In this document: one piece after another, positions 3,793 through 64,000 of the stretch | Layout of the letters: every line of letters begins with the position of its first letter | Numbering within the stretch: the first letter of the stretch is position 1 | NCBI GenBank assembly: GCA_030531245.1 | Contig: JAUNOA010000001.1 | Span: forward strand, 1 to 64,000 | Origin: Lachnospiraceae bacterium | GTDB taxonomy: Bacteria > Bacillota > Clostridia > Lachnospirales > Lachnospiraceae | Direction of reading: 5' to 3' | Length of the DNA: 64,000 bases | Notes under the pieces: model-generated | Database searches by the model: none | Told to the model about the DNA's origin: nothing | What the model saw: only the letters and a program-made list of their open reading frames with translations | Translations under genes and position numbers: made by a program

Positions 3793-5034
3793 TCAGTCAT
3801 ATATCGGATGCTGCCAGCAAAGCTTTACGACATCCTCTGAAATCTCTTTCTTTTTGTTTTCAAAATCAAAGATACAGTCACACACCCAACCGGCGATAAG
3901 CGACATCTCCTTCTCTGTAAATCCCCGGGTTGTCACGGCCGGAGTACCGATACGCAGTCCGCTTGTTACTGTCGGTCTTTCCGGATCTCCCGGGATGGCA
4001 TTTTTATTTGCCGTGATATGTATACTGTCAAGCCGATTCTGAAGCTCGATTCCGGTGACTCCAGTTCCTGTAAGATCAAGAAGCATCAGATGATTATCCG
4101 TTCCGCCTGATACAAGTTTGATTCCTCTCTGCATAAACTCCCCTGCGAGTGCGGCTGCATTTGACACGACCATCTTCTGATAATCTGAAAAGTCTGTGGA
4201 AAGTGCCTCACCGAGAGCTACCGCTTTTGCTGCAATAATGTGCATCAGCGGTCCTCCCTGAGTTCCCGGGAATATAGCCTTATCAACCTGCTTTGCATAC
4301 TGCTCTCTGCAGAATATCATACCGCCCCTAGGACCGCGAAGTGTCTTATGTGTAGTTGTGGTAACTATATCTGCATACGGGAACGGTGAAGGATGTACCC
4401 CTGCCGCAACCAGACCTGCTATGTGAGCCATATCAACCATAAAATATGCGCCGACCTCGTCCGCTATTTCGCGGAAAGCCGCAAAATCAATAAATCTTGG
4501 GTATGCGCTTGCCCCTGCAAGTATAAGCTTAGGTCTGTTTTCAAGTGCAAGTTTTCTGACCTCGTCATAATCAATACGGCCTGTCTCTGTATTGATTCCA
4601 TACGCGATTGAATTAAAGTATTTTCCGGAAATGTTTACCTTGGCTCCGTGCGACAGATGTCCTCCCGCAGGAAGTCCCATGCCCAGAACCGTATCTCCGT
4701 TTTCAATCATGGCATAAAAAGCTGCCAGATTTGCATTTGCTCCCGAATGCGGCTGAACATTTACATACTCAGCTCCCTGAAATAGTTCCAGTGCTCTCTC
4801 TCTCGCAATCTGTTCCACCACATCGACATACTCGCATCCGCCGTAATAGCGATGGGCAGGATATCCCTCTGCATACTTATTTGTCAGAATACTGCCTGCC
4901 GCATCAAGCACTGCCTGAGATACGATATTCTCAGATGCAATCAGTTCTATATTATTCTGCTGTCTGTGCAGCTCATCATTTATTGCCGAAGCCACCTCCG
5001 GATCAATATCAAAAAGCCTGTCCAATGAATCCAT
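3793..5034 (-). CDS. glyA: Serine hydroxymethyltransferase
   Basis: A PLP enzyme that interconverts serine and glycine and supplies 5,10-methylene-tetrahydrofolate. About 413 residues. The PLP lysine lies in [14 protein letters not shown], and the N-terminal [11 protein letters not shown] and [16 protein letters not shown] segments are typical of SHMT. An upstream TTG and another ATG exist in frame (5049 and 5040). The ATG at 5034 is chosen because GAGGAG lies 7 nt before it, whereas it nearly abuts the 5040 ATG. It is followed by its own terminator, and era lies upstream on the same strand. Confidence 0.95.
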
Positions 5035-5112
5035 AAGCATTCTCCTCAATCAATCATCTCTGACTGAATAAAATTATATCTTGTTTTTGATATGGTAGCA
5101 ATCCTGCATATT

Positions 5113-11700: not shown

Positions 11701-12363
11701 TTATTTCTCTTTCCCAAGTCTCACGCTTATGCTCATTCCGTCTGCAACGTTCAGAACACTGGTCATATATTCATCACTGTGCGTGAGCTCGTATAAGTAT
11801 TCTCTGAGTCTTGCATGCGTTGTCCTGTCTCTGCGATCCACCGCAAATCTGGACTGGACTATATCTCCGTCATGAAGCACATTATCCGAAAGCAGTACAC
11901 CTCCCGGAACAAGGATTTTAGTTACATCCGGCAGCCAGTTGATATACTGTGCCTTCGCGGCATCCATGAAAATAAAATCGAACCTCTCATTGTTTCTGAC
12001 ATATTCCTTCAGCATATCCGTGGCATCGGCCAGATAACAGCTTATCCGGTCTTCATAGCCAGCCAGCCTGACATTTTCTACAGCCATTCCGTAATCATTT
12101 TCTCCTATCTCTATGGTTGAGATATGACAGTCAGCCTCCGTATTTGCCGCCATAACTATTGCCGAATATCCCACACAGGTACCGATTTCCAGTATTCTCC
12201 CGGGGTTTTTCATTTTTAAAACAGACTTAAGCAGCTGTTCTCCGTCACGTCTTATTATCGGCATGGCGTCCTCAGCTGCTTTGGTCCTGATTTCCTCAAT
12301 GACCTTATCATTTCCGGGAATCAGACTGTCTATATAGTCTTTTATCCTCTCATTCTGAAACAT
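11701..12363 (-). CDS. trmR: tRNA 5-hydroxyuridine methyltransferase
   Basis: 220 residues of class I SAM-dependent methyltransferase (YrrM/TrmR group, related to catechol O-methyltransferases). The SAM site is LEIGTCVGYSAIVMA, and the metal/catalytic region FIFMDAAKAQY and LLSDNVLHDG are typical. It converts ho5U34 to mo5U34 in tRNA. The ATG at 12363 is chosen because AGGAAG is 5 nt upstream and the length fits; an upstream in-frame extension lies in the mltG-like gene. It overlaps that gene by 14 nt and abuts the U32 gene, so the three are one operon. Confidence 0.9.
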   Translation of the reverse strand: MFQNERIKDYIDSLIPGNDKVIEEIRTKAAEDAMPIIRRDGEQLLKSVLKMKNPGRILEIGTCVGYSAIVMAANTEADCHISTIEIGENDYGMAVENVRLAGYEDRISCYLADATDMLKEYVRNNERFDFIFMDAAKAQYINWLPDVTKILVPGGVLLSDNVLHDGDIVQSRFAVDRRDRTTHARLREYLYELTHSDEYMTSVLNVADGMSISVRLGKEK

Positions 12364-12832
12364 TATCTTCCTGAAGCCACTCAAACGGTTCATCCGGCTG
12401 AGTCTCCTCCTGTACCGGAGAGATTCCTGCTCCGTCCGGAATCGTCTCATCCCCGGGCGGTCCGTCATTCAGCTGATCAAGTATCTCTCTGGATGTCTGT
12501 GATGTATTGAAAGTATATGTTCCCGGCTTCACCTCATAATCAAAAAACTTTGCCTGAACAATAATCGAATATTTATTGTCTACAAGTCCTTTGTTCTTAA
12601 GAATTTCGGCAACTTCCTTTTCTCCGTCTCCGTCTTTTACAGTCACTGTTATATCGTGTCCCGGAGCATCTTCCACCGCCTGCGCATAAAAGATGCTGTG
12701 ACCGAAATCATATGCGGCCTTGATACCTTTTCCCGCAATAACAAATACGACAACAACAAGTACGACCCTGATTGCAAGCAGGATGATCGTACCTGTTATA
12801 TGATTTATGGTTTTCGTTGTCTTACTGCTCAT
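12350..12832 (-). CDS. MltG-like protein lacking the catalytic domain
   Basis: 160 residues. A cytoplasmic N-terminus, one TM helix (about 17-36) and a LysM-like module (TVTVKDGDGEKEVAEILKNK, then VKPGTYTFNTSQT) match the N-terminal part of endolytic murein transglycosylase MltG/YrrL. The family's catalytic YceG domain is absent; the protein instead ends in an acidic Pro/Glu-rich tail. It stands where yrrL stands in the Bacillus operon. It could be a non-enzymatic regulator or scaffold of peptidoglycan synthesis, or a shortened relic. The frame is intact, with no sign of a recent frameshift. Confidence 0.8.
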   Translation of the reverse strand: MSSKTTKTINHITGTIILLAIRVVLVVVVFVIAGKGIKAAYDFGHSIFYAQAVEDAPGHDITVTVKDGDGEKEVAEILKNKGLVDNKYSIIVQAKFFDYEVKPGTYTFNTSQTSREILDQLNDGPPGDETIPDGAGISPVQEETQPDEPFEWLQEDNVSE

Positions 12833-59795: not shown

Positions 59796-60725
59796 TTATC
59801 CCTGCTTTCTGTTCATCTCCCTGATGATATATTCAATTCCGTTTCTGGCTGCCGATTCTTTCGGAAGTATCCACTCTATCCTTACTGTTCCAAGCATCTT
59901 CTGAACTATCGGCTCCAGCAGATTTCTGAAATATCCGCTCTTGTTTACACCGCCTACATAGACTATCTTAAGTGTATCTCCGCGGAACTTCATCTTGGAG
60001 AAAGTCGTCCTGATGTATCCTGCGATATGAAATGCCGCTTCAAGAATTATCTCCTGTGCAGTCGGTTCTCCTGCCTCGGCAAGTTTGATTACATCAAATG
60101 CCAGTGAAGCTGTAGTCGGAACATCGAGTTCATTTATAACCCACTGAAGAGGAACTCCTTCTGTTTTGAATCTGCTCATCAAAGTCACTATAGGACTATC
60201 TTCATTCATGCCTTCATCCAGAAGCTGTATGGCCTCCTTTATAGCCTCGGCACCGATCCATGTACCCGATCCCAGATCCGAATAAGGCATGCCCCATCCG
60301 GCAGTCCGGTATATCTCTCCGTTACTGATACCGTACACAATTGCACCGGTCCCGCAGACAACAGCCATCCCGTCACCGTCAACCATACCCCGAAGTGAAT
60401 ACTGACAGTCATTGCATATGATGACCTTGTCCATATCCAGTCCCGTGGTACTGATAAGATTCCGATAATACTCCAGATCCTTTTCGGAATCAATTCCGGA
60501 AATACCGAATACGACACCTGATATATCATTGAGGTCTATCTTCTCAGCCTCCAGAGTTTTCAGGAACTGCTGAGCGATATCCATCCGGTCCTCGCTTTTA
60601 TCGACATTTTTATAGTTGGAACCTTTATAAAATGCCAGCGAATAGCTCCCTGTACTCTCGTTATAGATACAAAATTCAGTTTTGGTTCCGCCTCCGTCGA
60701 CGGAGATGTATATTCTGTCAGCCAT
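59796..60725 (-). CDS. BadF/BadG-type kinase, N-acetylglucosamine kinase-like
   Basis: 309 residues of the ASKHA fold: ISVDGGGTKTEFCIYN (phosphate loop), VFGISGIDS, IICNDCQYSLRG (catalytic Asp), VVCGTGAIVYGIS and DLGSGTWIGAEAI. This matches the BadF/GlcNAc kinase-like group, which phosphorylates N-acetylglucosamine or related amino sugars at C6; benzoyl-CoA reductase activators share the fold but carry Fe-S cysteines not seen here. AGGAGG precedes it. The substrate is not proven. Confidence 0.82.
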   Translation of the reverse strand: MADRIYISVDGGGTKTEFCIYNESTGSYSLAFYKGSNYKNVDKSEDRMDIAQQFLKTLEAEKIDLNDISGVVFGISGIDSEKDLEYYRNLISTTGLDMDKVIICNDCQYSLRGMVDGDGMAVVCGTGAIVYGISNGEIYRTAGWGMPYSDLGSGTWIGAEAIKEAIQLLDEGMNEDSPIVTLMSRFKTEGVPLQWVINELDVPTTASLAFDVIKLAEAGEPTAQEIILEAAFHIAGYIRTTFSKMKFRGDTLKIVYVGGVNKSGYFRNLLEPIVQKMLGTVRIEWILPKESAARNGIEYIIREMNRKQG

Positions 60726-60840: not shown

Positions 60841-61773
60841 TCAGAACCATTTCCTTTTCTTCCCGATAATGAGAAGAATCGCTATGACTATAGCCGATAT
60901 AAGAATTACCAAAATGTATCCGTATTCCCATTCCAGCTCCGGCATGTTTTTAAAGTTCATCCCGTACCATCCGACAATGATAGTAAGCGGGAAGAAAATC
61001 GTAGTTATAACAGTGATTCTCTTCATCGTGTTGTTAAGCTTCTGGTCCATCATGGATGCATAGGCATCCTGAAGATGATCTGCAAATCCGTTCAGAGAAC
61101 TGATCTCGTCCCTGGACCGTCCCAGCTTGTTTATCATATTTGAAATATAAATCAGATTTGAGTCATCAAAAATATTGTTATCATTATTCTCAAAAGTCTC
61201 AAATACATCCTGCATCTGACCATAGATACCACTGTATTTGCGCAGGCGTTTTTTTATCTGTAAAAGACTTTCATTCAGCTCCTTTTCCGCTGTTCCGCTA
61301 ATGATTGTTTCTTCAAGTCCGCAGAGCTCATCCTGCAAAGTTTCCATCAGAACATTGCCGTTCTTAAAAAGATCTTCAACGAAAAAACACACGAGCTTTT
61401 CCAGAGTCTTTTTCCCTGAAAGCTGTTTTTTCAACGAATCCATAAGACATTTCGCCGCAGAATGATCATCATCCTGTATCTCTACTACAAGCAGCAGGTT
61501 CTGTTTCAGAAAAATCGAAATGAAGTCATCATTGTCAGAAGAATCCATCAGTCTCAGTTCAGCGAAGGTGTATGTCTCTCTGACATCCACTCCTGTGCGA
61601 AACCGCATGTTTATTCTGCGTCCGGATTCAATTGTATCAGGATCAAATCCCAGTGACGGCCCCGCAGTTTCAAGCTCTTCACTTGAAATAACACCAACGG
61701 TAAGAACACTGTCGGAAATATCTGATACACTGATTTCTTCAAGACTTTCGCCAACTTTATATATCATTTTCAC
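60841..61773 (-). CDS. CorA-type divalent cation transporter
   Basis: 310 residues: a long cytoplasmic alpha/beta and coiled N-terminal part, then two C-terminal TM helices around the selectivity motif YGMNFKNMPELEWEYGY (GMN). CorA pentamers take up Mg2+ or other divalent cations. A basic KKRKWF tail follows TM2, as in the family. Its 5-prime leader holds a hairpin near the SD. Confidence 0.92.
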   Translation of the reverse strand: MKMIYKVGESLEEISVSDISDSVLTVGVISSEELETAGPSLGFDPDTIESGRRINMRFRTGVDVRETYTFAELRLMDSSDNDDFISIFLKQNLLLVVEIQDDDHSAAKCLMDSLKKQLSGKKTLEKLVCFFVEDLFKNGNVLMETLQDELCGLEETIISGTAEKELNESLLQIKKRLRKYSGIYGQMQDVFETFENNDNNIFDDSNLIYISNMINKLGRSRDEISSLNGFADHLQDAYASMMDQKLNNTMKRITVITTIFFPLTIIVGWYGMNFKNMPELEWEYGYILVILISAIVIAILLIIGKKRKWF

Positions 61774-61910: not shown

Positions 61911-61927
61911 ATATATAGACAAAAGCA

Positions 61928-61953
61928 GAGCCCGCTTCTTATGAAGCAGGCTC
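61928..61953 (-). terminator. Terminator of the transposase/surface-protein chimera gene
   Basis: GAGCC-t-GCTTC / GAAGC-g-GGCTC with a 4-nt loop; minus-strand tail TGCTTTTG. It lies 60 nt after the stop codon. Confidence 0.7.
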
Positions 61954-62013
61954 CGTATTTAATCTGAGAAACACTCTGAAAACCTGTGTTTCACGGATAC
62001 ATTATAATTATTG

Positions 62014-64000
62014 TCATCCTTCAACCCATGCACCGTTAGCATCTACGATATAACCGTCATATGTCTTTCCGGGTCCGATAAAGCATGCGCCGAATTTTTC
62101 ACCGGCAAACGGATTGAACAGATACCACTTGTTGTTAATCTTCTGCCATCCAGTAAGCATACTTCCGTTAGCATCGAAGAAGAACCAATCTGCACTAACC
62201 TTACCGTCAGCAGATGCATTTATAATGCAAGCCCATGTATTGGTTATCTTCTTATTGTTGTAAATATAATTCCATGCATTACTTGAAGTGTCAAATGACC
62301 ATCCGCTTGCGGAAAGAGGTGTTACTACAGAACCCAGGAATGCCGGTGCTGTACTGTTTCCTGATGTGGTCGTCTGACTTGTTGCGGATCCTGAAGAACC
62401 TGAAGATCCTGAAGACCTACCTCCTGATGAGCTACCTCCTGAGTTAGACTTCTTGTAACCGCATTCAGAACATTCTCCATTTACTAAATTATGACCTTCT
62501 TTAGAATTGCAGGTCTTGCAGATATGTCCTTTTGAACCATTGCTAACCCACTCATGGTCACCAAGTTCTCCGTATGCAGCTCCGCAGACTTCACAAACTG
62601 CCTTAGCTGTACAAGTTGCCTTTCCGCCCTTATGAGCCTCTACGCTGGTTTTTCCACCACATACAGAGCACTCCTGCCAGTGGCTATCGGCATCTTTCTT
62701 CTGCTCATATTTATGCTCACCAAACTCTCCGTATGCCGCTTTGCAGACCTCACATACTGCCTTGGATGTACAGGTTGCTGTTCCGCCCTTGTGAGCTTCA
62801 ACATTTATTTTTTCTTTGCAGTTTGTACACTCCTGCCAATGATTGTTTCCGTCAGATTTCTGAACATAATTATGTCCGGTTCCTCCCGGCTGATAGATGG
62901 AGCCCTCCTCAGTTGCCTGCTTGGTGAACTTTTCATTATCAAAAGTTACTTCGTAGTGACCAGCTGCCGGAACATACCTTAGTCCATTGACTGATATTCC
63001 GCTCCTTGTCACAAAAGCAGCATCTCTCGGCAGGGAACGTATATATACTTCCCTGTCATCAGCCCGAAGGAGCCTATCCTTACCATTCCTCTTATGCCAG
63101 TTCCATAATTCAAGAGGAGTATTCGGTGCATCTGCCGGAAGATGCCCGATATTCTCAAGTATCCGTGACTTGTTCAGCGTGAGGATACAGGTCACTACTA
63201 TCCTCTTATATTCCGTTAGGTTCAGTATCGCCTGCTTACGGTAATCCACAGCCCATCTTTCCTGTGCATCATCCCGTACCACGCCCTTTCCCTCAAGGGT
63301 AGATCGGTATGCATCCTGTATGAACCCTATGTTCCTCTCGATTATCGGCTTGCAGTCTGCCCTGAACGGTGGCTGATTGGTCACTGTCATACCGTATACC
63401 CTGCATAATTCCTCTAGCCTGGACCCGGAGAACTCCCTTCCTCTGTCCGCTATCAGCTCCTTTGGCATACCTCTTACCGGCCAGTCATCTTCTGTGATCT
63501 CTATCCCCAGTTCCTTACAGAAACTGACCTTATCCATTGCCGCATTCGCGATACAGGACATCACAGCGTTCTCTCCTGCCTCGAATCCCACGTATGCTCC
63601 GGTTATCATCTGTGTTGCAGTATCTGCTGCAAGGTATATGTTAGGCCTTCCGATCACTGTATTACGGTCATACTCCGACACGAGATGGATATCTGCCATC
63701 GTCTCATCGATCTGGTAGGACCCTATGGCATCCCTGAATGCCATTGCTGAGCCACGGATCATGCGATCATTCCTCTGATAATCGTATATCCCGTTCCTGG
63801 ATATCAGTTTCTGAGGATCTTTTGACCATCTGCGGGTATAATACTGGCTGAATGATGACAATGTAGGGACATTTTCCATCACTTTCCCTTCAGGATCGGT
63901 GTAATTCTCAAGGATCATGAGCTCATATACCGTCTTGAGCGAGTTCTTCTTAGCTGAAAAGTAGTATTTCCTTATGGCACGGTCGAATATCTCATTGGAT
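62014..64000 (-). CDS. TnsB-like transposase fused in frame to cell-wall repeat domains (5-prime end outside window)
   Basis: The frame is open to the window edge, so the N-terminus is missing; 661 codons are seen. The first part is a Tn7 TnsB-type DDE integrase: YQIDETMADIHLVSEYDRN (first Asp), GRPNIYLAADTATQMITGA, ELIADRGREFSG (second Asp), PIIERNIGFIQ (Glu) and RSGISVNGLRY. From about 62973 downward it changes to a surface protein. That part has two 53-residue repeats with HWQEC-type Cys pairs and EAHKGG, a Gly/Ser/Thr linker and choline-binding-like repeats (TGWQKINNKWYLFN, YDGYIVDANGAWVEG). A surface protein needs a signal peptide, which this chimera cannot supply downstream of a transposase. 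It is probably a product of transposon-mediated rearrangement. Confidence 0.8.
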   Translation of the reverse strand, partial: SNEIFDRAIRKYYFSAKKNSLKTVYELMILENYTDPEGKVMENVPTLSSFSQYYTRRWSKDPQKLISRNGIYDYQRNDRMIRGSAMAFRDAIGSYQIDETMADIHLVSEYDRNTVIGRPNIYLAADTATQMITGAYVGFEAGENAVMSCIANAAMDKVSFCKELGIEITEDDWPVRGMPKELIADRGREFSGSRLEELCRVYGMTVTNQPPFRADCKPIIERNIGFIQDAYRSTLEGKGVVRDDAQERWAVDYRKQAILNLTEYKRIVVTCILTLNKSRILENIGHLPADAPNTPLELWNWHKRNGKDRLLRADDREVYIRSLPRDAAFVTRSGISVNGLRYVPAAGHYEVTFDNEKFTKQATEEGSIYQPGGTGHNYVQKSDGNNHWQECTNCKEKINVEAHKGGTATCTSKAVCEVCKAAYGEFGEHKYEQKKDADSHWQECSVCGGKTSVEAHKGGKATCTAKAVCEVCGAAYGELGDHEWVSNGSKGHICKTCNSKEGHNLVNGECSECGYKKSNSGGSSSGGRSSGSSGSSGSATSQTTTSGNSTAPAFLGSVVTPLSASGWSFDTSSNAWNYIYNNKKITNTWACIINASADGKVSADWFFFDANGSMLTGWQKINNKWYLFNPFAGEKFGACFIGPGKTYDGYIVDANGAWVEG
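62557..62874. repeat. Two tandem 159-nt coding repeats
   Basis: Units 62716-62874 and 62557-62715, exactly 53 codons each, encode the HNYVQK.../HKYEQK... repeats with conserved HWQEC, EAHKGG, CTSKAVCEVC and AAYGE. A shortened third unit (HEWVSNGSKGHICKTC) follows toward 62440. Typical of extracellular surface proteins. Confidence 0.85.

Follow-up and report, generated by a model that had tools for sequence, protein, structure and literature searches.

The locus and its genes

The stretch of DNA analysed here (the window) comprises bases 1-64,000 of contig C49 (96,453 bases), which belongs to G000, a draft genome of 1.84 Mb in 101 contigs. At the end of the window, we observed a single unbroken frame on the minus strand that occupies 62014-64000 and is prolonged past the window to an ATG at C49:64380, so that the fusion gene is longer than the window coordinates indicate and encodes 788 aa, with its stop at 62014. 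The tnsB ATG is preceded by AGGAGGAAG, which resembles a ribosome-binding sequence. In this frame, the initial annotation had recognized a TnsB-like DDE integrase with a complete catalytic triad that passes near 62973, without stop or frameshift, into tandem Cys/His repeats and choline-binding-like modules, and each part of this description was borne out. The features of the locus are as follows.

60841-61773, minus strand: CorA-like gene (named from its sequence)
61926..61955, minus strand: stem-loop resembling an intrinsic terminator, after the stop of the tail (13 pairs, 8 of them G-C; consensus match only)
62014..62439, minus strand: Gly/Ser linker, choline-/glucan-binding-like cell-wall module and stop (the module recurs in G000 proteins)
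62440..62880, minus strand: Cys/His (HWxEC..C) repeats, then the start of the Gly/Ser linker (repeats, and similarity to surface proteins of the family)
62881..62973, minus strand: junction segment, codons 470-500, without clear TnsB homology
62974..64000, minus strand: truncated tnsB, of which codons 127/128-469 lie in the window (Tn7 TnsB and the relatives are matched up to codon 469/470)
63337..63339, minus strand: catalytic Glu348 (IERN), aligned to 7pik and invariant in the relatives' alignment A1
63445..63447, minus strand: catalytic Asp312 (ADRGR), aligned to 7pik and invariant in A1
63706..63708, minus strand: catalytic Asp225 (IDET), aligned to Tn7 TnsB in 7pik
C49:64383-64790: TnsA-like gene, 135 aa, upstream neighbour of tnsB (aligns with the TnsA of relatives)
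C49:64803-64974: three end repeats of about 36 bp each, upstream of tnsA
C49:65000: putative transposon tip TGTATGAGGGACAAAG (from its position and TGT start)

The two halves of the gene differ in third-position GC (0.535 in the tnsB part versus 0.384 in the tail), which fits two separate gene histories. The two alternative frames of the tail are full of stops. Since the 788 codons contain no stop, decay, if any, would be recent, or the open frame is tolerated.

The transposase half is a truncated TnsB

Codons 1-469 of the fusion encode a TnsB-type DDE transposase with its catalytic triad, as found in Tn7-like transposons. Residues 121-469 matched Tn7 TnsB (PDB 7pik) with an E value of 9.4e-49, alongside a family-profile match of 1.6e-108, and D225, D312 and E348 align with the catalytic residues in the core of Tn7 TnsB. 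In an alignment with six relatives, TnsB conservation persists up to Y469. The Mu-transpos_C domain, which the relatives carry past codon 469, was not found in the fusion; the TnsB part ends at this codon, short of the Mu-C barrel and the TnsC-binding tail that form a complete C-terminus. Tn7 TnsB cannot dispense with its last 22 residues, either for its interaction with TnsC or for transposition (PMC9371665).

A scan of species genomes yielded 464 stretches that encode a TnsB relative. In the best 80 of these, TnsB typically runs 96-197 aa further than codon 469/470 before its stop, and tnsC lies downstream in 78, directly adjoining in most; in this survey the query ended at 470 by design, and the downstream lengths alone are informative, not the match ends. 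Two loci are without tnsC. One of them, L097, runs into a contig end. In the other, L085, the TnsB stop comes 11 residues past the conserved block and no tnsC is present in the remaining 4.1 kb; this locus probably represents a further copy in decay, interrupted at a similar point.

One transposon end and a TnsA-like gene remain

The initial annotation had also proposed to look beyond 64000 for tnsA and end repeats, and both were indeed present there. Five of six aligned members match Pfam TnsA_N, for which the gene of this locus stays below the cut-off (E = 0.024); on the basis of its sequence, it is a candidate TnsA partner such as Tn7-like transposons possess. Of two ends with TnsB sites, only one was found. 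The three end repeats have no second cluster anywhere in the genome, and the putative tip has no second good copy there, its other matches having 3 mismatches and being no commoner than the control. No right end was detected beyond the tail.

The TnsC AAA+ regulator was not found either. As stated in the initial annotation, no TnsC-type partner follows the fusion, the next gene being the CorA-like one, and a TnsC query gave nothing in G000 while it was positive in all three control genomes.

The tail belongs to a surface protein

The Cys/His repeats begin at about codon 501 and include two 100-nt repeats (62554-62653 and 62713-62812) that are 80% alike. These motifs also occur in large surface proteins from other members of the bacterial family. 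The tail also contains a cell-wall-binding repeat, as its choline-binding repeat PF19127 exceeds the Pfam cut-off. The C-terminal module closes several other G000 proteins whose N-termini look signal-peptide-like. When compared with two secreted proteins encoded on G000:C80 (799 and 1880 aa), this module is 44-45% identical and the Gly/Ser linker is shared; however, the C80 proteins start with a signal-peptide-like sequence, whereas the fusion has TnsB in that place. Judged by eye, the fusion begins with TnsB and has no signal peptide ahead of the tail. The surface part is thus deprived of a usable signal, as had been noted initially, and should not be exported. The terminator-like hairpin past the stop suggests that the 3' end of the tail is native.

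The junction and the sister genomes

TnsB homology stops at codon 469/470, i.e. at 62974/62973. With a query extended to residue 485 (tblastn, best 80 of the 464 stretches), the matches end at 467-470 in most loci and only a few reach 472-484, in agreement with the position first proposed for the change. Codons 470-500 weakly resemble the segment before the Cys/His repeats in the surface protein L069, in an alignment that runs from codon 469, so that the breakpoint could fall anywhere between codon 469 and about codon 500. The most likely position is 469/470.

We compared the locus with two sister genomes. Homology to G001 reaches contig position 60714 and restarts at 65329, and G002 is likewise collinear. 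G000 therefore has about 4.6 kb of extra DNA, bordered by a conserved response regulator on one side and a sugar kinase on the other; the left end, tnsA, the fusion and the CorA-like gene are located in it. At the same place, G001 encodes a small secreted-looking protein of 161 aa (L172:2587-3072, minus strand) and G002 has next to nothing. The CorA-like protein has no match in G001 or G002, both incomplete drafts; its gene may have come in together with the insertion, or the sister genomes may have lost it. The locus had been proposed to mark the edge of a Tn7-like insertion or rearrangement, and tnsA, the end repeats and the boundary at 62973 agree with both.

A random contig chimera was rejected, as it would not restore the same neighbours on both sides, which are syntenic with the two sister genomes. 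A more specific assembly artefact has to be considered, in which the real locus would still contain the missing transposon parts as well as the N-terminus of the surface protein, all skipped by the assembler, for example through strain merging. G000 is a draft of many contigs, there is no independent genome of the species for comparison, and TnsC could sit in an unbinned contig. Yet the syntenic flanks indicate that the join is not random, no second transposon end lies elsewhere in the genome, and the 400 bases that span the junction match nothing else in the genome apart from short stretches attributable to chance. Without a repeat at this point, an assembler is not easily misled there, and we regard such a collapse as unlikely.

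The absence of a tail-like gene at the locus in G001 and G002 allows another reading, in which the surface gene came with the element as cargo and the deletion took place wholly within the transposon. However, the module is common to G000's own surface proteins and the tail is not followed by a right end, which makes a cargo origin quite improbable.

Origin of the fusion

We consider it very probable that a Tn7-like transposon has been reduced here to a remnant, joined in frame by a deletion to a surface-protein gene. A Tn7-like element (left end, tnsA, tnsB, tnsC, probably tniQ, cargo and right end) would have inserted downstream of the response-regulator gene, next to a surface-protein gene on the same strand. 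One deletion would then have taken tnsB from about codon 469, tnsC, the cargo, the right end, and the signal peptide and N-terminus of the surface protein. The cut ends would have been joined in frame by chance, for which the odds are 1 in 3, leaving the left end, tnsA, the 5' part of tnsB, the surface tail and its terminator. Neither an intact surface gene nor an intact element was found at the site in any relative; the parental state, with the surface gene already in place and a single deletion, is thus one that we infer. Since the TnsB C-terminus, TnsC and the second end were not found in the genome, the remnant is probably unable to transpose. Tn7-like elements of the same type are common in Clostridia, and decayed copies of them are to be expected.

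The fusion was also searched for elsewhere, as the initial annotation had suggested. None of the 80 closest relative loci has a surface tail on TnsB, the fusion was not found in the 397 family genomes sampled, and viral contigs gave no match to a 30-base tail probe nor to the fusion protein. Literature searched for transposase fusions of this kind contained nothing relevant. A stable protein family was rejected, the fusion being present in no other genome searched.

A working domesticated protein, in which the TnsB part would bind DNA or act as a regulatory domain with the Cys/His module attached, could be suggested by the long open frame, the intact triad and the ribosome-binding-like sequence, but the fusion is confined to this genome among those searched, its cell-wall tail would need export, and no conservation points to selection, so that we give this reading very little credence. 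It is equally hard to believe that the cell expresses and retains it as a novel DNA-binding protein, derived from TnsB and equipped with a Cys/His module, which so far is seen in this species only.

The proposal of a gene fusion in progress was not supported, the product lacking the Mu-C barrel, the TnsC-binding tail and a signal peptide, with TnsC and the second end not found in the genome and the fusion unseen in the other genomes searched. The deletion remnant, presumably without function, seems to reflect the usual decay of mobile DNA rather than a new protein family, and it offers no new mechanism. It provides a clear example of transposon decay in which a chimeric ORF would be listed by automatic annotation as one protein, and a caution against taking such ORFs as new domain architectures.

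Comparison with Tn7 and with related elements of Clostridia

The remnant resembles the TnsA-TnsB part of Tn7 in its tnsA-tnsB order, its DDE triad, the similarity of the catalytic core and the repeats upstream of tnsA. Unlike in Tn7, TnsB breaks off at the equivalent of residue 520 (of 702) in Tn7 TnsB, TnsA is short, and TnsC and the second end were not found. It also resembles the short-TnsA Tn7-like elements of Clostridia, such as L077 (DUPK01000038.1), its closest relative, in which TnsA has about 130-150 aa, a similar size to that observed here. The L077 TnsB is 40% identical to the fusion over query residues 9-473; L077 retains Mu-transpos_C, TnsC and TniQ, whereas the C49 remnant does not.

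The TnsB family, from L077 to L156, covers Clostridia, Bacilli and Gammaproteobacteria. On either side of the L077 element (4679-5094 and 12040-12456) lies a direct copy of a unit that measures about 415 bp and has inverted ends. The two copies are 88-95% alike and could be a sign of nested transposon ends or of paired MITEs.
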